From positions 806,001 through 870,000 of the forward strand of contig NZ_SPUJ01000003.1 in the NCBI RefSeq assembly GCF_004522105.1: a DNA stretch of 64,000 nucleotides, written 5' to 3'. Under the pieces are notes generated by a model. That model had not been told where the DNA came from, searched no databases, and saw nothing but the letters and a program-made list of their open reading frames with translations. Position 1 is the stretch's first letter, and every line of letters begins with the position of its first letter. Of this stretch, positions 2,610 to 12,256 are shown in pieces. Position numbers and translations under genes: made by a program. The stretch comes from Nocardioides sp. 1609 (lineage in GTDB: Bacteria > Actinomycetota > Actinomycetes > Propionibacteriales > Nocardioidaceae).

Positions 2610-2927
2610 GCCGACCTCCTGAAGGCGTCGTCGCCGACGCTGATTGCCGGCGTCCTGCCCGACGCCTGCCCCTTTCCCCGGGGGCGGTGACGAACACTAC
2701 GCCCCCGGCGCGCCGGTTGTCAGAGGCCTCCCCAGGCGGCCCGGACCCCTGGTCCGAGACCGGACCGTGCCCGTGCCGTTACCTCGAACCACCCACCCGG
2801 GGCCCCCGAGGTGGGTAACGTGAACCCTCGGTCGGGCGACGCGCGGGCGTTCCATGGATATGATCCGCCGACCCACCACACCAGGGACCAGCTCGTCGGG
2901 ACCTCCCGACCCGCTGACAGGAGCCAC
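2610..2927. other. 318-bp intergenic region between acetyltransferase gene and liv operon
   Basis: No gene seen. It must hold the divergent promoters for the acetyltransferase gene (minus) and the livHMGF operon (plus). An AT-rich patch GGATATGATCC near 2854-2864 is the best candidate -10 region for the liv operon. A GC-rich CCCCGGGGGCGG stretch lies at ~2676-2690. No convincing operator was identified. Confidence 0.5.
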
Positions 2928-4283
2928 ATGCCGAACCGTCAGACCCCGTCCCGGGGCATTCTTGCTCGACCACTTGCCGCCGTCGTGGCGCTCGGCGCCT
3001 TCCTCGCGCTGTTCGTGCTGGCGGGCCCGGCCTCGCCGGCGTCCGCTGCCTGCGACGGCACCGCGATCCCGAAGACGATGTCGGGCGTCCTCGTGAACTC
3101 CGCCGACGACGGCGCACCCGTGCCGGGCGTCGCGATCACCGTCACCAACTGCGACGGCGTCGAGTTCGAGGGCGAGACCGACGAGTCGGGCGCGTTCACG
3201 ATCGACTTCGAGGCCGGCATCGGTCCCGTCACCGTCGCCCTGGACCCCGAGACCCTGCCCGACGGCGTCGACATGCGCGACGGGGCCAGCACCACCAACA
3301 CGCTGACCGGCTCGCTGACCGAGCTCAACACGACGTTCCTCATCGGACCCGACGGGCGCAACGTCGAGACCAAGTGGGACCGCGTCGCCGGACTCGTCTA
3401 CAGCGGGTTGCTGTTCGGCCTGATCCTGGCGATGGCGGCGCTGGGGCTCTCCATGGTCTTCGGCACCACCGGGCTGACCAACTTCGCCCACGGCGAGCTC
3501 GTCACCTTCGGCGCGATGGCGGCGTTCTTCGTCAGCACCGGCATCCCGCTCCCGTTCACCGACAACGACATCAGCCTGCCGTTCATCTGGGCGGTACCGG
3601 CCGTGGTCGTCCTGGCGCTCGGGTTCGGGTGGCTCCAGAACACCGTGCTCTGGCAGCCGCTGCGCAAGCGCGGCGTCGGCCTGATCGCGGCGATGATCGT
3701 CAGCATCGGCCTGCAGTTCTTCCTGCGCAACGTCTACGCCTACCTCACCGGGTCGCGCACCGAGACCTACCAGGACTACTACACGCCCCAGGGCAAGGAC
3801 GCGTTCGGCCTGTTCACCTACACCGACCGTGACATCGCCATCGCCGTCACCTGCATCGTCGTCCTCACGGTCGTGCTCCTGGTGCTCCAGTTCACCCGGA
3901 TCGGGCGGGCCACCCGCGCCGTCTCCGACAACCCCGCGCTGGCCGCGGCCACCGGCATCAACGTCGACCGCGTCATCTCGCTGGTGTGGATCGTCGGCAC
4001 GGCGCTGGCCGCCCTGTCGGGTGTCTTCCTCGGCTTCACCCTGGGTGTCACCTACCAGATCGGGCAGCTCGTGCTGCTGCTGCTGTTCGCCGCGTGCTGC
4101 GTCGGCGGCCTCGGCTCGGTCTGGGGCGCGCTGCTCGGCGCGCTCATCATCGGCGTCCTGATCGACCTGTCGACGCTCGTCATCCCCTCCGACCTCAAGA
4201 ACGCCGGAGCCCTGCTCCTGCTCATCGTCATCCTGCTCGTGCGTCCCCAAGGCCTGCTCGGCCGCCGGGAACGGGTCGGCTGA
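2928..4283 (+). CDS. livH: Branched-chain amino acid ABC transporter permease LivH with extra N-terminal extracellular domain
   Basis: Inner-membrane permease of a branched-chain amino acid type ABC importer, 451 residues; LivH is usually ~290-310. The start is the ATG at 2928 with ACAGGAG upstream. Residues ~12-41 are a signal-peptide-like segment ending ASPASA. Residues ~42-145 form a beta-rich extracellular domain resembling carboxypeptidase-regulatory or CNA-B folds (SGVLVNSADDGAPVPGVAI, FEGETDESGAFTI). The LivH permease follows, with a conserved FGTTGLTNFAHGELVTFGA segment and further membrane helices to the end (RPQGLLGRR). It is the first gene of livHMGF. Ligand specificity cannot be fixed from sequence. 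Confidence 0.92.
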   Translation: MPNRQTPSRGILARPLAAVVALGAFLALFVLAGPASPASAACDGTAIPKTMSGVLVNSADDGAPVPGVAITVTNCDGVEFEGETDESGAFTIDFEAGIGPVTVALDPETLPDGVDMRDGASTTNTLTGSLTELNTTFLIGPDGRNVETKWDRVAGLVYSGLLFGLILAMAALGLSMVFGTTGLTNFAHGELVTFGAMAAFFVSTGIPLPFTDNDISLPFIWAVPAVVVLALGFGWLQNTVLWQPLRKRGVGLIAAMIVSIGLQFFLRNVYAYLTGSRTETYQDYYTPQGKDAFGLFTYTDRDIAIAVTCIVVLTVVLLVLQFTRIGRATRAVSDNPALAAATGINVDRVISLVWIVGTALAALSGVFLGFTLGVTYQIGQLVLLLLFAACCVGGLGSVWGALLGALIIGVLIDLSTLVIPSDLKNAGALLLLIVILLVRPQGLLGRRERVG

Positions 4284-4301
4284 GGCGAAAGGACGAACGC
4301 A

Positions 4302-5270
4302 ATGGACCTCATCACCACACCGCTCCACGACGCCTTCGCCCCTGTGGCCATCTCCTACGTGCTCGCGGCGATGGGCCTCAACATCCACTACGGGTACACG
4401 GGCCTGCTCAACTTCGGTCAGGCGGCGTTCGCGGCCGCCGGCTCCTACGCCATGGCGGTCACGATCGTCTCCTTCGGGGTGCCGTTCATCCCCGCCATCC
4501 TGCTCGGGCTCGCAGCCTCGGTCGTCCTGTCACTGGTCATGGGTGTACCCACCCTGCGCCTGCGGGCCGACTACCTCGCGATCGTCACGATCGCGGTGGC
4601 GGAGATCCTCCGCCTGCTGTTCAGCACCTCGTTCAAGAAGTACTTCCACGCCCGCGACGGCGTGAGCGGCTTCACCGGGACCTTCCGGTCCTGGAACCCG
4701 TTCAAGGACATGGAGGGCACGTTCCTGTCCTTCAGCGCCAACGACCTGTGGGTCATGGTGGTCGGCTGGATCATCGTCGCGCTCGTCAGCACGCTGGTGT
4801 TCCTCCTGATGCGCAGCCCGTGGGGCCGCGTCCTCAAGAGCATCCGCGAGGACGAGGACGCCGTCCGCTCGCTCGGCAAGAACGTCTACGGCTACAAGAT
4901 GCAGGCGCTCGTGCTCGGCGGCATGATCGGGGCGATGGGCGGCTTCGTCGGCGCGCTGGGCCTGGCCTCGGTGCAGCCCGACACGTTCAACACCGACTTC
5001 ACCTTCATCGCCTTCACCATGCTGATCCTCGGTGGCGCGGCCCGGGTCCTCTCCCCCGCCGTCGGCGCCGTGCTCTTCTGGGGCGTGCTGTCGTTCATGT
5101 CCGTCGCCCTGTCCGAGCTGTCCGACATCGTCCCGGGCGACCTGCTCGACAGCAACCGGATCGGCAACATCCGTTTCGCAGTGGTCGGCCTCGTGCTGAT
5201 GCTGCTGATGATCTACCGCCCGCAGGGACTCTTCGGAGACCGGAAGGAGATCGCGATCGATGCCCGCTGA
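4302..5270 (+). CDS. livM: Branched-chain amino acid ABC transporter permease LivM
   Basis: Second membrane subunit of the importer, 322 residues, the normal size for LivM. Typical motifs are NIHYGYTGLLNFGQAAFAAAG near the N-terminus, GVPTLRLRADYLAIVTIAV, and the cytoplasmic EAA-like loop SPWGRVLKSIREDEDAVRSLGKN that contacts the ATPases. The sequence ends RPQGLFGDRKE. It begins 18 bases after livH with GAAAGGA upstream, and its last 11 bases overlap livG, so it is translated as part of the operon. Confidence 0.95.
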   Translation: MDLITTPLHDAFAPVAISYVLAAMGLNIHYGYTGLLNFGQAAFAAAGSYAMAVTIVSFGVPFIPAILLGLAASVVLSLVMGVPTLRLRADYLAIVTIAVAEILRLLFSTSFKKYFHARDGVSGFTGTFRSWNPFKDMEGTFLSFSANDLWVMVVGWIIVALVSTLVFLLMRSPWGRVLKSIREDEDAVRSLGKNVYGYKMQALVLGGMIGAMGGFVGALGLASVQPDTFNTDFTFIAFTMLILGGAARVLSPAVGAVLFWGVLSFMSVALSELSDIVPGDLLDSNRIGNIRFAVVGLVLMLLMIYRPQGLFGDRKEIAIDAR

Positions 5271-6282
5271 CCGCGACGAGCCCACGCTCGACAAGACCAC
5301 CCTCGACAAGGCCCCGCTCGACAAGGCCCCGTCCCACCGGGCCGCGACCGACGGCAAGGCAGGGCTGGCCGGACTGGCCGGTCTGTCGACCGATCCCGGC
5401 GTGGCCAAGCCCGACCCGATCCTGGTGGCCACGGGGATGACCCGCACCTTCGGCGGCCTCAAGGCCGTCGACGTCGCCCACCTGGAGATCCAGCGCGGTG
5501 TCATCACCGCGCTGATCGGGCCGAACGGCGCCGGCAAGACGACGTTCTTCAACCTGCTGACCGGGTTCGACCGACCCGACGCCGGCGAGCGCTGGTTCAA
5601 CGGCCGCTCGCTCAAGCGGGTCTCGGCCAGCCGGGTCGCCCGACTCGGCATGGTCCGGACCTTCCAGCTGACCAAGGTGCTCTCCAAGCTCACCGTCCTG
5701 GAGAACATGCGCCTGGGTGCGACCGGCCAGCTCGGCGAGAAGATGTGGGCCGGCTGGCTGCCCTTCCTCTGGCGTGACCAGGAGAAGGAGGTCACCGGAC
5801 GCGCTCGTGAGCTGCTGACCCGGTTCAAGCTCGACACCAAGGAGGACGACTTCGCCGGCGCCCTGTCCGGTGGTCAGCGCAAGCTCCTCGAGATGGCTCG
5901 TGCCCTGATGGTCGGCCCCGAGCTCGTCATGCTCGACGAGCCGATGGCCGGGGTGAACCCCGCGCTCAAGCAGTCGCTGCTCGGGCACGTGAAGTCGCTG
6001 CGCGAGGAGGGCATGACCGTCCTCTTCGTCGAGCACGACATGGACATGGTCCGCGACATCTCCGACTGGGTCGTGGTCATGGCCCAGGGCCAGATCATCG
6101 CCGAGGGCCCGCCGGACGCCGTCATGGCCGACCAGCGCGTCATCGACGCCTACCTGGGCGCGCACCACGACGTCGACATCACCGAGCTCGACCCCGAGGT
6201 GGTCGCGCTCGAGGTCGAGGCCGAGATCGGGGCCGAGCACGGCTCCACGGGCGCCTCCACCACCGAAGAACTGGAGCGATGA
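5260..6282 (+). CDS. livG: Branched-chain amino acid ABC transporter ATP-binding protein LivG
   Basis: Cytoplasmic ATPase of the importer, 340 residues against ~255 usual. Walker A is GPNGAGKTT, the signature is LSGGQRKLLEMARAL, Walker B is LVMLDEPMAGVNP, and the H-loop is VEHDMDMV. The extra length is an N-terminal ~50-residue low-complexity extension containing three near-repeats of LDKxxLDKAP, plus a ~35-residue C-terminal tail after the usual end. The gene overlaps livM by 11 bases and livF by 4, so the subunits are translationally coupled. The role of the extensions is unknown. Confidence 0.94.
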   Translation: MPADRDEPTLDKTTLDKAPLDKAPSHRAATDGKAGLAGLAGLSTDPGVAKPDPILVATGMTRTFGGLKAVDVAHLEIQRGVITALIGPNGAGKTTFFNLLTGFDRPDAGERWFNGRSLKRVSASRVARLGMVRTFQLTKVLSKLTVLENMRLGATGQLGEKMWAGWLPFLWRDQEKEVTGRARELLTRFKLDTKEDDFAGALSGGQRKLLEMARALMVGPELVMLDEPMAGVNPALKQSLLGHVKSLREEGMTVLFVEHDMDMVRDISDWVVVMAQGQIIAEGPPDAVMADQRVIDAYLGAHHDVDITELDPEVVALEVEAEIGAEHGSTGASTTEELER

Positions 6283-7079
6283 GCATGGCTCTCGAGAAGC
6301 AGACCGACGCCGACGCCCGCGCCGACGAGGCGCGGGCCAAGCACCTCGCGGCCGCCGACGGCGCCGTCCTGCGTGCCGACGACCTCATCGCCGGGTACGT
6401 GCCGGGCGTCAACATCCTCAACGGCGCCGACCTGTACTGCCACCCCGGCGAGCTGGTCGGCATCATCGGCCCGAACGGTGCCGGCAAGTCCACCCTGCTC
6501 AAGGCGCTGTTCGGCCTGGTGAAGGTGCACACCGGCTCCGTCACGCTGCGGGGCGACGAGGTCACCAACGAGCGTGCCGACTCGCTGGTCAGCAAGGGCA
6601 TCGGCTTCGTGCCCCAGACCAACAACGTGTTCCCGAGCCTCACCATCGCCGAGAACCTCCAGATGGGCTGCTACCAGGCCCCCTCGAAGTACTCCAGCCG
6701 GTTCGAGTTCGTCACCAACATCTTCCCGCAGCTCGCGGCCCGTCGCGGGCAGCGGGCGGGGTCGCTGTCCGGCGGCGAGCGGCAGATGGTCGCGATGGGC
6801 CGCGCCCTGATGATGGAGCCGTCGGTGCTCCTGCTCGACGAGCCGTCGGCCGGGCTCTCCCCCGCCATGCAGGACGAGGTGTTCCTGCAGACGCGCGAGA
6901 TCAACAAGGCCGGCGTCAGCGTCGTCATGGTCGAGCAGAACGCCGCCCGGTGCCTGCAGATCTGTGACCGCGGCTACGTCCTCGACCAGGGTCGCAACGC
7001 CTACACCGCGACCGGCGCCGAGCTGGCCAAGGACCCCAAGGTCATCGAGCTGTACCTCGGGACCCTGGCGAAGAAGTAG
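6279..7079 (+). CDS. livF: Branched-chain amino acid ABC transporter ATP-binding protein LivF
   Basis: Second ATPase of the importer, 266 residues, pairing with LivG. Walker A GPNGAGKST, signature LSGGERQMVAMGRAL, Walker B VLLLDEPSAGLSP, H-loop VEQNAARC and the ending VIELYLG are all canonical for LivF. Its ATG overlaps the livG stop as ATGA; a second ATG two codons later is also possible. It is the last gene of the operon and is followed by a strong hairpin terminator. Confidence 0.94.
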   Translation: MSMALEKQTDADARADEARAKHLAAADGAVLRADDLIAGYVPGVNILNGADLYCHPGELVGIIGPNGAGKSTLLKALFGLVKVHTGSVTLRGDEVTNERADSLVSKGIGFVPQTNNVFPSLTIAENLQMGCYQAPSKYSSRFEFVTNIFPQLAARRGQRAGSLSGGERQMVAMGRALMMEPSVLLLDEPSAGLSPAMQDEVFLQTREINKAGVSVVMVEQNAARCLQICDRGYVLDQGRNAYTATGAELAKDPKVIELYLGTLAKK

Positions 7080-7404: not shown

Positions 7405-8766
7405 CTACTCGCCCTGTCCGAGGCCGGCCTGGATGAGCGCCGGGACGATCTTCTTGGTCTCGTCGAAGCTGATCAGGATGATCGCGTCGGGGTCCTCGGC
7501 AGCGATCGCCTGCACCTCGGCGTTGTAGTTGGCCGCCTCCGGCGAGTAGAGCTGGTAGGAGACGACGCTGCCGCCGGCCTCCTCGTAGAACGAGCGGACG
7601 TTCTCCGCCAGCGCCTCACCGTAGGAGTCCTGGCGAGCCAGGATCGCGATGTTCTGCTTGCCGTCCTCGATCAGGGTCGAGGCCATGACCTGGCCCTGCA
7701 GCACGTCGGACGGCGCGGTACGGAAGTACAGGCCGCTGTCGGCGTAGGAGTCGAAGGCCGTGGAGGTGTTCGCCGGGGAGATCTGGGCGACACCGGCCTG
7801 CGTGATCTTGTCGATGACCGACAGCGAGACCGAGGACGACGCTGCACCGATGACGACGTCAGCGCCACCGGAGAGGAGCTTGTCGGTCTCGGACGGGGCG
7901 ATGTTCGGCGTGCCGTCACCGGAGTCGGCGCGGATCGAGGTCGCCTGCGACCCGTTGACGCCACCGTTCTCGTTGATCTCCTTGACCGCCAGCTCGACGC
8001 CGGCGAACTCCGGGGGCCCGAGGAAGGCGAGGTCACCGCTCGAGGGCAGCAGCATGCCGACGACGAACTTGCCGTCACCCGGCTTGACGCTGGCGATCTC
8101 CTGGTCGGGCTTCACCTCGGACGCGTCCGGGATCTGGCCGGTCACGAAGTTGACGGGGGCGTAGTTGTTGTCCGCGCCGTACTCGAAGATGCCGATCGTC
8201 GCGGCCGACGGGCTGCCGGTCGAGTTCAGGTCGATCGGACCGGAGACACCGTCGTAGTCGATGTCGGTGCCCGCGCCGAGCAGGTCGGCGCACGCCTTGA
8301 ACTCGGTGCACTTCTCGCCGCCGCCGGTGACGTCGGCCATCTTGGAGCCGACCGCCGTGCCGGAGTCGTCGCCCGCGGCGATGGCCGCGAGAGCCGCCAC
8401 GATCGTGGCGTCGTAGGACTCGGGACCGTAGGTGAAGTCCTTGAGCTTCTTGTCGACGCCGAGCAGCCGCTGACGGAAGTCGTCGCCGAGCTCGGCGCCC
8501 GGGTAGGTCGCCTTGACACCCTCGAGGGTGCCCGGGTCGAAGTCCTCGGTGTAGTTGGCGGTGTTGCCGTCGACGAAGTACAGCTGCATCCCCGTCGCCT
8601 CGGCCGGCGGAGCACTCGACTCGCCGCCCTCGGCGCTCGAGCTCGACTCGCCGCCGGACGGCGTGTCGTCGCTGTCGCCGTCGTCCTCGCCGCCACATGC
8701 GGCGAGCACGAGCGTGCTGGCAACGGCAACGATCCCGAGTCGCGCCTTCTTGCTAAGGGGTTTCAT
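7405..8766 (-). CDS. livK: Branched-chain amino acid ABC transporter substrate-binding lipoprotein, apparently circularly permuted
   Basis: The extracellular binding protein partnering livHMGF, 453 residues. It has a lipoprotein signal peptide with lipobox LAAC (Cys24) and a Ser/Gly/Glu-rich linker to ~58. In normal family members the mature protein begins with a segment like VGMLLPSSGDLAFLGPPEF and ends with YDGVSGPI...YGADN. Here the order is swapped. Residues ~60-210 (LYFVDGN, ESYDA, DIDYDGVSGPI, YGADNNY) are the usual C-terminal part. Residues ~233-453 are the usual N-terminal part, and the protein stops at LIQAGLGQGE, just where LYFVDGN would normally follow. All key blocks are present once. 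It is convergent with livF and has GGAGG before its ATG, with TAGGTT at 8817-8822 as likely -10. Confidence 0.92.
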   Translation of the reverse strand: MKPLSKKARLGIVAVASTLVLAACGGEDDGDSDDTPSGGESSSSAEGGESSAPPAEATGMQLYFVDGNTANYTEDFDPGTLEGVKATYPGAELGDDFRQRLLGVDKKLKDFTYGPESYDATIVAALAAIAAGDDSGTAVGSKMADVTGGGEKCTEFKACADLLGAGTDIDYDGVSGPIDLNSTGSPSAATIGIFEYGADNNYAPVNFVTGQIPDASEVKPDQEIASVKPGDGKFVVGMLLPSSGDLAFLGPPEFAGVELAVKEINENGGVNGSQATSIRADSGDGTPNIAPSETDKLLSGGADVVIGAASSSVSLSVIDKITQAGVAQISPANTSTAFDSYADSGLYFRTAPSDVLQGQVMASTLIEDGKQNIAILARQDSYGEALAENVRSFYEEAGGSVVSYQLYSPEAANYNAEVQAIAAEDPDAIILISFDETKKIVPALIQAGLGQGE

Positions 8767-8922: not shown

Positions 8923-9507
8923 TCAGGAACGGCCGGGAACGCCGTGCTCGACGACGCCCTCGGCCACCTGGCGCATCGAGAGCCGCAGGTCCATCGCGGT
9001 CTTCTGGATCCACCGGAAGGCGTCCGGCTCGGACAGCTGGAGCTCCTGCTGGAGGACGCCCTTGGCGCGGTCGATCGCCTTGCGGGTCTCGAGCCGCTCG
9101 GTGAGGTCGGAGACCTCGGCCTCGAGCAGGGAGAGCTCGGCGAACCGGCTCCGTGCCATCTCGATCGCCGGCACCAGGTCGGACTGGGTGAACGGCTTGA
9201 CGAGGTAGGCCATCGCCCCGGCGTCGCGGGCGCGCTCGACGAGCTCGCGCTGCGAGAACGCGGTGAGGATCACGACCGGGGCGATCCGCTTCGCCGCGAT
9301 CGCCTCGGCGGCCGCGATCCCGTCGAGGACGGGCATCTTGACGTCGAGGATGACCAGGTCGGGCCGGTGCTCGGTGGCCAGCTCGATGGCCCGGGCCCCG
9401 TCACCGGCCTGCCCCACGACGGAGTAGCCCTCGTCGGTCAGCATCTCGGCGAGGTCCATCCGGATGAGGGTCTCGTCCTCGGCTATGACGACGGTGGGCG
9501 CGTTCAC
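8923..9507 (-). CDS. pdtaR: ANTAR-domain response regulator (PdtaR-like)
   Basis: A 194-residue response regulator that acts on RNA, not DNA. The receiver domain (residues ~1-120) has the acidic pair D11/E12-region, the phosphoacceptor Asp55 in VILDVKMPV and Lys in YLVKPF. The C-terminal ANTAR domain (~130-185) contains the RKAIDRAKGVLQ and AFRWIQKTAMDLRLSMRQVAE helices that bind paired hairpins and cause antitermination. Its cognate kinase (PdtaS type) is not in the window. The pyk-pdtaR-polA neighbourhood is also found in mycobacteria. GTG start, with TAGATT exactly 6 bases upstream, so it is probably leaderless. Confidence 0.93.
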   Translation of the reverse strand: MNAPTVVIAEDETLIRMDLAEMLTDEGYSVVGQAGDGARAIELATEHRPDLVILDVKMPVLDGIAAAEAIAAKRIAPVVILTAFSQRELVERARDAGAMAYLVKPFTQSDLVPAIEMARSRFAELSLLEAEVSDLTERLETRKAIDRAKGVLQQELQLSEPDAFRWIQKTAMDLRLSMRQVAEGVVEHGVPGRS

Positions 9508-9513
9508 GGCCCC

Positions 9514-9519
9514 AATCTA
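9514..9519 (-). promoter_or_regulatory. Leaderless -10 box of pdtaR
   Basis: TAGATT on the minus strand, separated by 6 bases from the GTG start at 9507. This spacing puts the transcription start at or next to the start codon. Confidence 0.6.
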
Positions 9520-9543
9520 GCGGGCGTTCGGGTCACCGCCGTC

Positions 9544-9726
9544 TCAGGCCGGGTGCTCCGAGCCGTAGGTCCGGGCGAGGGGCGCGGGGAGCCGCGACCG
9601 CGAGTCGAGGTAGTGCGCGACCTCGGCCCGCTCGACCCGGCGCCGGCCGCAGGCGGTGGCGCCGGCCCGGGCGTTCTCGATGGCACGCTGGTTGCTGGCC
9701 GCGGCCCAGCCCAAGAGGTTCCACAC
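9544..9726 (-). CDS. Small conserved-looking hypothetical protein
   Basis: A 60-residue basic protein of unknown function, beginning MWNLLGWAAASNQRAIENA and containing a positively charged segment CGRRRVERAEVAHYL. There is no signal peptide or membrane helix. The GTG start has GGGAG five to six bases upstream, and the gene is preceded by an AT-rich promoter-like region containing a TAACT/AGTTA dyad. The good ribosome binding site and compatible codon use argue it is real, but no domain is recognised. Confidence 0.6.
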   Translation of the reverse strand: MWNLLGWAAASNQRAIENARAGATACGRRRVERAEVAHYLDSRSRLPAPLARTYGSEHPA

Positions 9727-9759
9727 GGTGTGCTCCCGGCGGTCTGGTGATGGAGACTT

Positions 9760-9771
9760 TAACTGTAGTTA
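9760..9771. promoter_or_regulatory. Small dyad in AT-rich promoter region
   Basis: TAACT-GT-AGTTA, a 5-bp inverted repeat inside the most AT-rich stretch of the neighbourhood (9755-9790), directly upstream of the 60-residue gene. It is a candidate operator; the regulator is unknown. Confidence 0.35.
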
Positions 9772-9832
9772 GTTGATCATGTTTATGCAATGCGCCGACG
9801 GGACTCGCCGTGGGCTAGGGTTTCGTGCGCTC

Positions 9833-9906
9833 GCCCCGATAGCCCAACTGGCAGAGGCGATGGTCTCAAACACCATTCAGTGTGGGTTCGAATCCCACTC
9901 GGGGCA
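9833..9906 (+). tRNA. tRNA with CAA anticodon (Leu codon) but short variable arm
   Basis: A 74-base cloverleaf. Acceptor GCCCCGA pairs with TCGGGGC, discriminator A73, anticodon stem ATGGT/ACCAT with loop CTCAAAC (anticodon CAA, reading UUG), and T arm GTGGG-TTCGAAT-CCCAC. The variable region is only TCAGT, whereas bacterial tRNA-Leu is class II with a long variable arm. The D stem has only three pairs, GCC/GGC. No CCA is encoded. Identity as a working leucine tRNA is therefore uncertain. TAGGGT at 9815-9820 is a possible -10. Confidence 0.75.
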
Positions 9907-9960
9907 CCCGGGTCGCCTCCGCCGCACCACCCGCTCGTCCGCAACCGGGCCAGCCAGCGG

Positions 9961-10155
9961 GTGGCCGGCGAGGTCAAGCGCTACGACTACCCGCGGTGGC
10001 AGCTCACCAACGTCAGCGCCGACATCCGGGAGCTGTGCTGCTGGGCCCTGGACCTGGTCGACGTGCCGTGGCGGCAGAGCCGCTGGAACTGCATCAGTGT
10101 CTCCCGGCGCGAGGCGGTCGCGCGGCTCGACGGGCTGATCGGCCCGAAGACCTGA
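9961..10155 (+). pseudogene. Remnant resembling the C-terminus of a LAGLIDADG-like protein
   Basis: A 64-codon open frame (GTG at 9961) just downstream of the tRNA, with YDYPRWQLTNVSADIRELC and a following segment ending RLDGLIGPKT. This pattern (YPR...FTN.S.DI...C...D..GV.W....ISVSRR..V..LD..IGPK) resembles the C-terminal part of actinobacterial LAGLIDADG-like or HTH proteins. The N-terminal part is missing and no ribosome binding site is seen, so I read it as a decayed fragment left beside the tRNA. It could instead be a small expressed protein. Confidence 0.45.
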
Positions 10156-10176
10156 CGGCACGGGACCGCCGGCTCC

Positions 10177-10182
10177 TATGCT
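10177..10182 (+). promoter_or_regulatory. Leaderless -10 box of the lipoprotein gene at 10189
   Basis: TATGCT, six bases before the GTG start at 10189; no ribosome binding site is present. Confidence 0.55.
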
Positions 10183-10188
10183 GGCGCG

Positions 10189-10782
10189 GTGGACCGCACC
10201 GTCACCGCCGCCGTCGTGCTGTCGGTGCTGGCGCTCGCGGCCTGCACCCAGGACGGCGACGCCGGACCGCCGCCGGACCCGCCCACCGCGGAGCCGGCCA
10301 GCTCCGGCCAGCGGGCGCAGTGCGCGGTCGCCGACCCCGAGGGGCAGCTGATCCTCCTGCCCGGCAGCCTGACGCCGAGCAGCGAGACGGTGCTCGACGG
10401 CGTCGACCTCGACCGCTCCGTCGGGCTGGAGGTCATCGAGCAGGCGGCCGTCGCGTTCGCCGGCCGGAGCACCGTGCAGGGCGTCGTCCTCGACTACCCC
10501 CCGCTGCCGAACGCCGACCTCGCCGACTCGCTCGCCACCTGGGACACCCGCCGGGCCCTGCCCGGGCTCAGGCTCACGCCCGACGACGGGCAGCACGCCG
10601 TCCTGGTGGCCGTGCAGCTCACCGATCCCGACGAGGCCGGTCACCTCGACGGCGTCGTCCTGCGCCACACCGACGCGGACGGCACCCACGAGAAGGTGAT
10701 GGCGCAGCCGCTGCTGGTGCAGCCGGCCGACGCGCTGTGCGACGTCGAGGCCTACGCCTCGACGCTCGACTGGGCGCCCTGA
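10189..10782 (+). CDS. Putative lipoprotein of unknown function
   Basis: A 197-residue protein with a short lipoprotein signal: hydrophobic VVLSVLALAAC with lipobox Cys at ~19, then a Pro/Gly/Asp-rich linker. The mature part has no domain I recognise. It has two further Cys residues (in AQCAVAD and ALCDVEAY) that could form a disulfide, which fits an exported protein. It is convergent with pyk, with only 10 bases between stops. GTG start, apparently leaderless. Confidence 0.75.
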   Translation: MDRTVTAAVVLSVLALAACTQDGDAGPPPDPPTAEPASSGQRAQCAVADPEGQLILLPGSLTPSSETVLDGVDLDRSVGLEVIEQAAVAFAGRSTVQGVVLDYPPLPNADLADSLATWDTRRALPGLRLTPDDGQHAVLVAVQLTDPDEAGHLDGVVLRHTDADGTHEKVMAQPLLVQPADALCDVEAYASTLDWAP

Positions 10783-10792
10783 CGCGCCGGGG

Positions 10793-12256
10793 TCAGTTCT
10801 GTCGGCGGTAGGCCGGGGCCGCCTCGTTGATGGCGTCGCCCATCCGGTGGATGCGCAGCGCGTTCGTCGAGCCGGGGATGCCGGGCGGGCTGCCCGCGAC
10901 GATGACGACGAGGTCGCCCTCCTCGACCCGGCCGATCGCGAGCAGCTGCTCGTCGACCTGGCGGACCATCTCGTCGGTGTGGTCGACCGCCACGGTCCTG
11001 AACGTCTCGACGCCCCAGGTGAGCGAGAGCTGCGAGCGCACCCGGTTCTCCGGCGTGAAGGCGAGCGTCGGGATCGCGCTGCGCAGCCGGGCGAGCCGCT
11101 TGGCCGAGTCGCCGCTCTGGGTGAAGGCGACGACGTACTTCGCGCCGACGCGGGCCGCGACCTCCTCAGCCGCCTTGGCGATCACGCCGCCGCGGGTGTG
11201 GGGGTCCCACACGATCGCGGTGATCTGGCCGGACTCGGCCTGCTCGAGGGCGTGGTTCTCGGTCGAGGTGATGATCCGGGCCATCGTCTCGACGACGTGG
11301 ATCGGGTGGTCGCCGACGCTGGTCTCCCCCGACAGCATGACCGCGTCCGCGCCGTCGAGGACGGCGTTCGCGACGTCGCTGGCCTCGGCGCGGGTGGGCG
11401 CCGGGCTGGTGATCATCGACTCGAGCATCTGGGTCGCGACGATGACCGGCTTGGCGTTCAGCCGGGCCTTGCGCACGATCTCCTTCTGCAGGAACGGCAC
11501 GTCCTCGAGCGGGCACTCCACGGCCAGGTCGCCGCGGGCGACCATGAAGCCGTCGAAGGCCTCGATGACCTCGTCGAGGTTGTCGATGGCCTGCGGCTTC
11601 TCGATCTTGGCGATGACGGGGAGCAGCTGCCCCTCCTCGCGCATGATCCGCCGCACGTCCTCGACGTCCTTGGCGTCGCGCACGAAGCTCAGGGCGATGA
11701 AGTCGACGCTGAGGCTGAGCGCGAAGCGGAGGTCCGCGATGTCCTTCTCCGACATCGCCGGCACCGAGACCGCCACGCCGGGCAGGTTGATGCCCTTGTG
11801 GTTGCTCACCCGCCCGCCGACGAGCACCTCGGTCTGGACGTCGGTGCCGTCGACCTGCAGCACGCGCAGCCGCACCTTGCCGTCGTCGATGAGGATCGGG
11901 TCTCCGGTCTTCACGTCACCCGGCAGGCCCTGGTACGACGTCCCGGCGACCACGCCGTCCCCGGGCACGTCGCGGGTCGTGATGGTCCACCGCTGGCCGC
12001 GCTCGAGGATCGCGTGGCCCTCCGCGAACGTCGCCAGCCGGATCTTGGGGCCCTGCAGGTCCGCGAAGATCCCGACGCCGCGACCCGAGGCGTCGGCGGC
12101 CTCGCGGACGAGGCGGTAGGACTCGGCGTGGTCGGCGTGGGTGCCGTGGCTCATGTTCAGCCGGGCGACGTCCATGCCGGCGTACACCAGCTCACGGATC
12201 CTCCGCTCGGAGCTCGTGGCCGGACCCAGGGTGCAGACGATCTTTGCTCTACGCAC
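10793..12256 (-). CDS. pyk: Pyruvate kinase
   Basis: Last enzyme of glycolysis: phosphoenolpyruvate plus ADP gives pyruvate and ATP. Length 487 residues, normal for the bacterial enzyme. Visible motifs are KIVCTLGPATSS at the N-terminus, ARLNMSHG, the metal and substrate site around VIAKIEKPQAIDNLDEVI and FMVARGDLAVE, and VMLSGETSVGDHP. The C-terminal allosteric domain runs from ~350. GTG start with TAGGGT six bases upstream, indicating a leaderless transcript. Confidence 0.96.
   Translation of the reverse strand: MRRAKIVCTLGPATSSERRIRELVYAGMDVARLNMSHGTHADHAESYRLVREAADASGRGVGIFADLQGPKIRLATFAEGHAILERGQRWTITTRDVPGDGVVAGTSYQGLPGDVKTGDPILIDDGKVRLRVLQVDGTDVQTEVLVGGRVSNHKGINLPGVAVSVPAMSEKDIADLRFALSLSVDFIALSFVRDAKDVEDVRRIMREEGQLLPVIAKIEKPQAIDNLDEVIEAFDGFMVARGDLAVECPLEDVPFLQKEIVRKARLNAKPVIVATQMLESMITSPAPTRAEASDVANAVLDGADAVMLSGETSVGDHPIHVVETMARIITSTENHALEQAESGQITAIVWDPHTRGGVIAKAAEEVAARVGAKYVVAFTQSGDSAKRLARLRSAIPTLAFTPENRVRSQLSLTWGVETFRTVAVDHTDEMVRQVDEQLLAIGRVEEGDLVVIVAGSPPGIPGSTNALRIHRMGDAINEAAPAYRRQN

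Follow-up and report, generated by a model that had tools for sequence, protein, structure and literature searches.

Introduction

Natural circular permutation is already known among type I binding proteins, and the one case that we found in print is Tp0684 (TpMglB-2) of Treponema pallidum, a binding lipoprotein of an ABC importer. In its description, the designation 'Type Ic/Cluster Bc' was proposed, the lobes are reported to have a fourth crossover, and both ligand binding and the conformational change to be retained (PMC4990184). The same paper places its relatives in treponemes and Gram-positive bacteria, and raises anchoring as a possible reason for its topology.

Here, we analysed a gene from a 64,000-nucleotide stretch of the genome of Nocardioides sp. 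1609 (the whole stretch is called the window), whose product was confirmed, going by its sequence, to be a circularly permuted substrate-binding protein (SBP) of the LivJ type (Peripla_BP_6). We consider it highly probable (roughly 0.87) that it serves as the SBP of the adjacent LivHMGF importer, which is of the branched-chain amino acid/amide type, and that a canonical LivJ-type ancestor was permuted in place, and recurrently so.

Gene and block order

Table 1. Features of the permuted SBP gene and of its neighbours in the window.
Feature	Position	Strand	Evidence
livH permease; exported domain at the N-terminus, beta-sandwich-like; start codon is uncertain	2811..4283	+	PF02653 1.6e-38
livM permease	4302..5270	+	PF02653
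livG ATPase	5260..6282	+	PF00005, PF12399
livF ATPase, converges with the SBP gene	6279..7079	+	PF00005
Permuted substrate-binding lipoprotein gene (whole)	7405..8766	-	453 aa + stop
Residues 230-453: block A, homolog of the canonical orthologs' N-terminal region	7408..8079	-	PF13458 4-217; PDB 4n0q
Residues 213-229: new 17-residue linker PDASEVKPDQEIASVKP, old C-terminus to old N-terminus	8080..8130	-	canonical ends compared
Residues 60-212: block B, homolog of the canonical orthologs' C-terminal region	8131..8589	-	alignment to canonical orthologs
Residues 25-59: low-complexity tether, Asp/Ser/Glu/Gly/Pro-rich	8590..8694	-	sequence; pLDDT <50 for residues 1-56
Residues 1-24: export signal, ends in lipobox LAAC (Cys24)	8695..8766	-	sequence
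ANTAR response regulator, syntenic neighbour	8923..9507	-	PF00072 + PF03861

The ORF, its coordinates (7405..8766 on the reverse strand including the stop codon, 453 amino acids) and the motifs quoted in an earlier, sequence-only reading of the window were all borne out. From the N-terminus, the product is ordered as signal and lipobox, the C-terminal block of the family (60-212), the linker (213-229) and the N-terminal block (230-453). Cys24 was kept in all 13 permuted proteins that were compared. Block B opens with the strand MQLYFVDGN and block A ends just past the helix FDETKKIVPALIQAGLG; the cut corresponds to the loop between this helix and the strand QLYFVDGN, close to residue 221 in the 3ip5 chain. 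Going by the lobe limits of LIVBP, the break presumably falls in lobe 2.

The Pfam family PF13458 matched residues 236-451 with positions 4-217 of its 343-position profile (112.9 bits against a curated cut-off of 31.7). Only PF01094 and PF13433 were also above their cut-offs; the sole sugar-type match, Peripla_BP_3, stayed below its own (E 0.21, 12.1 bits versus 26.5). As regards Peripla_BP_6, the protein has a sequence above the cut-off and LivH, LivM, LivG and LivF alongside, but not the canonical block order. Each of the 28 canonical congeners examined (L002-L019 and L047-L056) aligned as query residues ~230-450 and then ~60-212, with block A 42-64% and block B 41-61% identical, which, together with the position of the PF13458 match, upholds the reversed order that the earlier reading had proposed. 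When the blocks were restored to the canonical order, the PF13458 match extended to profile positions 4-311 (with the score rising merely from 112.9 to 116.9 bits), the ANF_receptor match grew from 6-203 to 6-350, and 3ipc was collinear with the re-ordered protein over 7-313, including across the junction. The linker had been put at ~22 residues and has to be shortened to 17 (213-229, PDASEVKPDQEIASVKP), since the typical end of canonical relatives lies near (Y/F)xxGxI and their domain starts, after the tether, at GDG.

The predicted structure of the window protein was confident outside the signal and tether (pLDDT 78.6, pTM 0.79). PDB 4n0q matched block A across residues 232-452 (Z 17.2), and nearly all of the matches that Foldseek and VIA listed for this model were confined to block A; a library of viral structures gave weak matches only. 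The window protein is modelled as a single confident unit, in which block A resembles PDB structures and block B may dock.

In a six-segment HMM test of 149 distinct ORFs, 108 were canonical, 40 were permuted and one (L111) had a missing segment; neither a third block order nor any fused or partly duplicated intermediate was found among them. Since the ORFs had been gathered with permuted-order queries, permutations with other breaks are possibly under-sampled in this set. Segment 3, which lies across the break, matched twice in 30 distinct permuted ORFs. The double matches shared at most six profile positions (49 permuted ORFs, species repeats included), and therefore the segment is split and not duplicated, in line with the earlier statement that all blocks are present once. 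Apart from its order, nothing of the canonical sequence is missing. Remnants similar to A or B were found neither in the flanks (at most 1 kb) of 26 permuted loci nor in the window gene's own flanks (325 bp and 156 bp). A lipobox was located at the start of all 40 distinct permuted sequences (script-picked).

Distribution and selection

Of the 215 genus genomes searched, a match at E<=1e-25 was obtained in 119. The permuted order was seen in 17 of these, including the window's own, each time as one continuous match; the permuted match of G204 was interrupted by a contig end. A second match at this threshold was present in none of the 17, and the window protein is the sole match in its own genome at E<=0.001. 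In the other 16 permuted genomes, six of which are single-contig assemblies, identity to the window protein ranged from 97 down to 67%. Among the 58 relatives sampled initially, no further genome with the permuted order was present. The named public genomes contributed 75 loci, of which 15 were permuted (L057-L071), 39 canonical (L072-L110) and 21 distant or partial. The permuted loci came from Nocardioides, Marmoricola, a Streptomyces-labelled strain, LLX17, Nonomuraea and Microtetraspora as well as from Ilumatobacteraceae, Acidimicrobiaceae and acIV MAGs. The same-order relatives that the earlier reading had envisaged therefore exist in 16 further genus genomes and at 15 loci of the public collection. 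The permutation is inherited in a clade of Nocardioides and its kin, and this inheritance, along with an order opposite to that of the family, supports the natural circular permutation that had been suggested. In seven close pairs of permuted genes, dN/dS was 0.086-0.311, which shows purifying selection in these pairs and rules out a degrading gene for them.

Beyond the genus, a profile of 13 permuted proteins was used as the query. In the class-level search (394 genomes), permuted orthologs were present in at least 11 of the 151 matching genomes, a lower bound because the matches were listed down to E ~2e-62, and in the phylum-level search (396 genomes), in eight of the 61 matching genomes; G000 and G326 were common to both samples. 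Two break sites can be distinguished, that of the window (site 1) and a second one ~20 residues further along. As site 2 is cut later, the strand (..YGCDGNMGNGLGKSFDAGE in L070) is retained at the C-terminal end, and GELEGMKGTTP opens the mature domain in L069-L071, with a similar start in L161-L166. The model of the site-2 protein L070 (pLDDT 77.7, pTM 0.79) was confident outside the signal, the tether and the last 12 residues, and its Foldseek matches mostly covered 229-258 columns.

Locus and partner genes

The livH-livM-livG-livF cluster of the window (2811-7079, +) is complete and converges with the SBP gene. Many canonical and permuted loci have a common neighbourhood, which consists of pyk, the ANTAR response regulator, the SBP and the facing livF-G-M-H. 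The SBP faced livF in 26 of the 33 permuted loci that were read and in 39 of the 41 canonical ones; some species are represented twice among them. A livF gene was recognised in 30 of the 33 permuted loci, where it was facing in 26, codirectional in three (L064, L067 and L068) and divergent in one (L198); of the remaining loci, one had livH as the only liv gene seen (L197) and two had no liv gene recognised. In the stretches read, liv genes were not recognised at the permuted loci L194 and L195 and at the canonical loci L100 and L208. The permuted SBP occupies an unchanged locus with unchanged partner genes.

Tandem canonical SBP genes were found at the syntenic locus upstream of the convergent livFGMH in L221 (5731-9416) and L222 (6011-9744). 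Nonomuraea and Microtetraspora each have one permuted and one canonical copy, of which the permuted copy may have been acquired by transfer. The permuted SBP of Streptomyces sp. GESEQ-4 (L064) groups with Marmoricola and has a codirectional livHMGF, which indicates either a transfer or a mislabelled genome. The permuted SBPs of family f40 (L194:9063-10433 and L195:9692-11152) are, within the stretches read, orphan binding proteins. The linkage of the ANTAR response regulator and pyruvate kinase (window positions 8923-12256, -) with the SBP often recurs in other Actinomycetota, and a functional reason for it is not evident.

Ahead of its permease core, the LivH of the window has an export signal and a ~100-amino-acid extracytoplasmic beta-sandwich-like domain, for which CarboxypepD_reg scored 23.6 bits, under the cut-off of 32.3. 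The LivH proteins of other loci, permuted and canonical alike, have the same architecture, and this domain could contact the binding protein. A tie between the permutation and the extra domain was considered and is unsupported, as the domain is present at canonical loci too. Nothing was found in the open-access literature on a LivH with such a domain.

Phylogenetic analyses

In the SBP tree, a careful IQ-TREE analysis of 75 re-ordered SBPs, the block order changed five times, and at least four of these changes were forced by the starred branches. The window clade comprised 15 permuted rows (support 95/97), and together with nine canonical rows it formed one mainly Nocardioidaceae clade of 24 rows (100/99), within which the branching was partly resolved. 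In topology tests on a quick tree of 69 rows, uniting all 28 permuted rows in one clade was rejected (p-AU 6.9e-68), as was uniting the 22 site-1 rows (1.2e-51). Holding the window clade and f28/f37 together was rejected at 0.028 with groups that had been named post hoc from the tree, while single clades were not rejected for the six site-2 rows, which form two groups (p 0.271), or for L139, L170 and L194 (0.543).

The partner genes gave a similar picture. The livM/livG/livF/livH tree, a quick one with SH-aLRT only (73 rows, 1220 columns), was built from the 88 of 113 loci tried in which the genes were present, with 73 kept after thinning. It required five changes, all of them forced, its permuted groups matched those of the SBP tree, and the window clade appeared as 15 permuted rows next to six canonical ones. 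The tree of the A block likewise had five changes, of which starred branches forced three only, and the weakly resolved tree of the B block (130 columns) had nine changes and broke up the window clade. These trees indicate that the permutation recurred in Actinomycetota, with five events as the best estimate and, conservatively, at least three, the number that we defend because some clade mergers were not firmly rejected by the topology tests.

Discussion

By descent and genomic context, the permuted protein is probably the ligand-capturing component of LivHMGF. According to the explanation that we favour, an ancestral canonical LivJ-type SBP would have been permuted in situ within a working importer. 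The new N-terminus and its lipid tether would directly precede a lobe-2 strand, the helix before that strand would be followed at once by the new C-terminus, and the 17-residue linker would bridge the old ends. The tether would then pull on lobe 2 and not on lobe 1, the linker would form a fourth interlobe connection, and the ligand would presumably still be bound in the interlobe cleft and delivered to LivHMGF. The permutation may in this manner alter the lipid anchor and the docking onto LivH and LivM, as the earlier reading had also suggested.

The gene itself may have arisen by the tandem duplication of an SBP gene, fusion and the loss of the outer pieces. The tandem canonical pairs of L221 and L222 suit such a route and would be its expected raw material; as neither a fused intermediate nor a remnant was found, the duplication route is not demonstrated. 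Alternatively, fission may have split the SBP gene into two ORFs that were re-fused in the opposite order, which would likewise explain cuts without duplicated residues; a general model of this kind has been published (PMC3320104). We regard this as unlikely, since tandem SBP pairs do exist at the locus and no single-block ORF occurred among loci L132-L208.

We hold it to be distinctly improbable that a single ancient permutation was followed by spread, by reversions or canonical replacements and by a drift of the break site. The two break sites are merely ~20 residues apart and the distant linkers seem vaguely similar (PDxxxVxxxQ in Nocardioides and APADADVPQ in L070). However, one permuted clade was rejected, two gene sets need five changes each, supported branches place canonical lineages between the permuted ones, and every reversion would have to be an exact reverse permutation.

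Even less probable is that the permuted protein has lost its role in transport and is now a sensor or a decoy, to which the f40 copies L194 and L195 would correspond, as no liv genes were recognised in the stretches read around them. Against this, the window gene lies beside an intact livHMGF and has no other match in its genome at E<=0.001, and livF was recognised in nearly all of the permuted loci (30/33). Finally, a swap of two segments by an error of assembly or binning can be rejected with near certainty despite the 19 contigs of the window's genome and the MAG origin of several permuted loci, because named public assemblies and 17 genus genomes, 16 of them besides the window's own and six of these single-contig, share this in-frame order and resemble one another in junctions and linkers, so that the rearrangement which the earlier reading had named as a possible refutation is ruled out.

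For the recurrent in-place permutation of a canonical SBP, which we prefer, a reason can be offered tentatively. The approximately five permutations, all within a lobe-2 stretch of ~25 residues, might have occurred because the shift of the tether or the fourth interlobe link is adaptive, an idea towards which we lean less than against. If it is true, nature has replicated an experiment on the position of the tether and the topology of the fold. The lipobox in all 40 permuted sequences fits the anchoring idea, although it does not discriminate because canonical SBPs are lipoproteins too. Permuted and canonical orthologs that are alike in the sequence of both blocks occur at one locus within one genus, which makes it testable how circular permutations arise and whether selection acts on tether position or on hinge connectivity. 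The system also bears on how a binding protein can change its topology while its permease partners remain unchanged. For annotation, sequential domain models such as those of Pfam cover just about half of such a permuted protein.

The canonical LivJ/LivK proteins (PF13458; 3ipc, 4n0q and 4gnr) share both blocks, lipoprotein export and the liv neighbours with the window protein, which, unlike them, has reversed blocks, both termini in lobe 2 and an added linker. DNA methyltransferases and swaposins are unrelated proteins with natural permutations, for which a duplication model is described and intermediates are reported (PMC3320104), whereas none were found for the window SBP family. A natural permutation in the Liv family was not found among the titles and abstract openings listed from the open-access literature. 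Like TpMglB-2, the window protein is a circularly permuted type I binding protein, judged by the order of its sequence. TpMglB-2 belongs to the MglB sugar family and not to LivJ/Peripla_BP_6; its first three strands stand at the C-terminus after a break in the N lobe, whereas the break of the window protein follows residue ~221 (3ip5 numbering), presumably in lobe 2; and the identity of the permuted part of TpMglB-2 is 13%, as against 41-64% between the window blocks and the 28 canonical congeners. Repeated origins are a feature of the Liv-type permuted SBPs when set against TpMglB-2. What is new in comparison with MglB-2 is the occurrence in the Liv family, the different break, the proof at the sequence level, the conserved locus and the recurrence.
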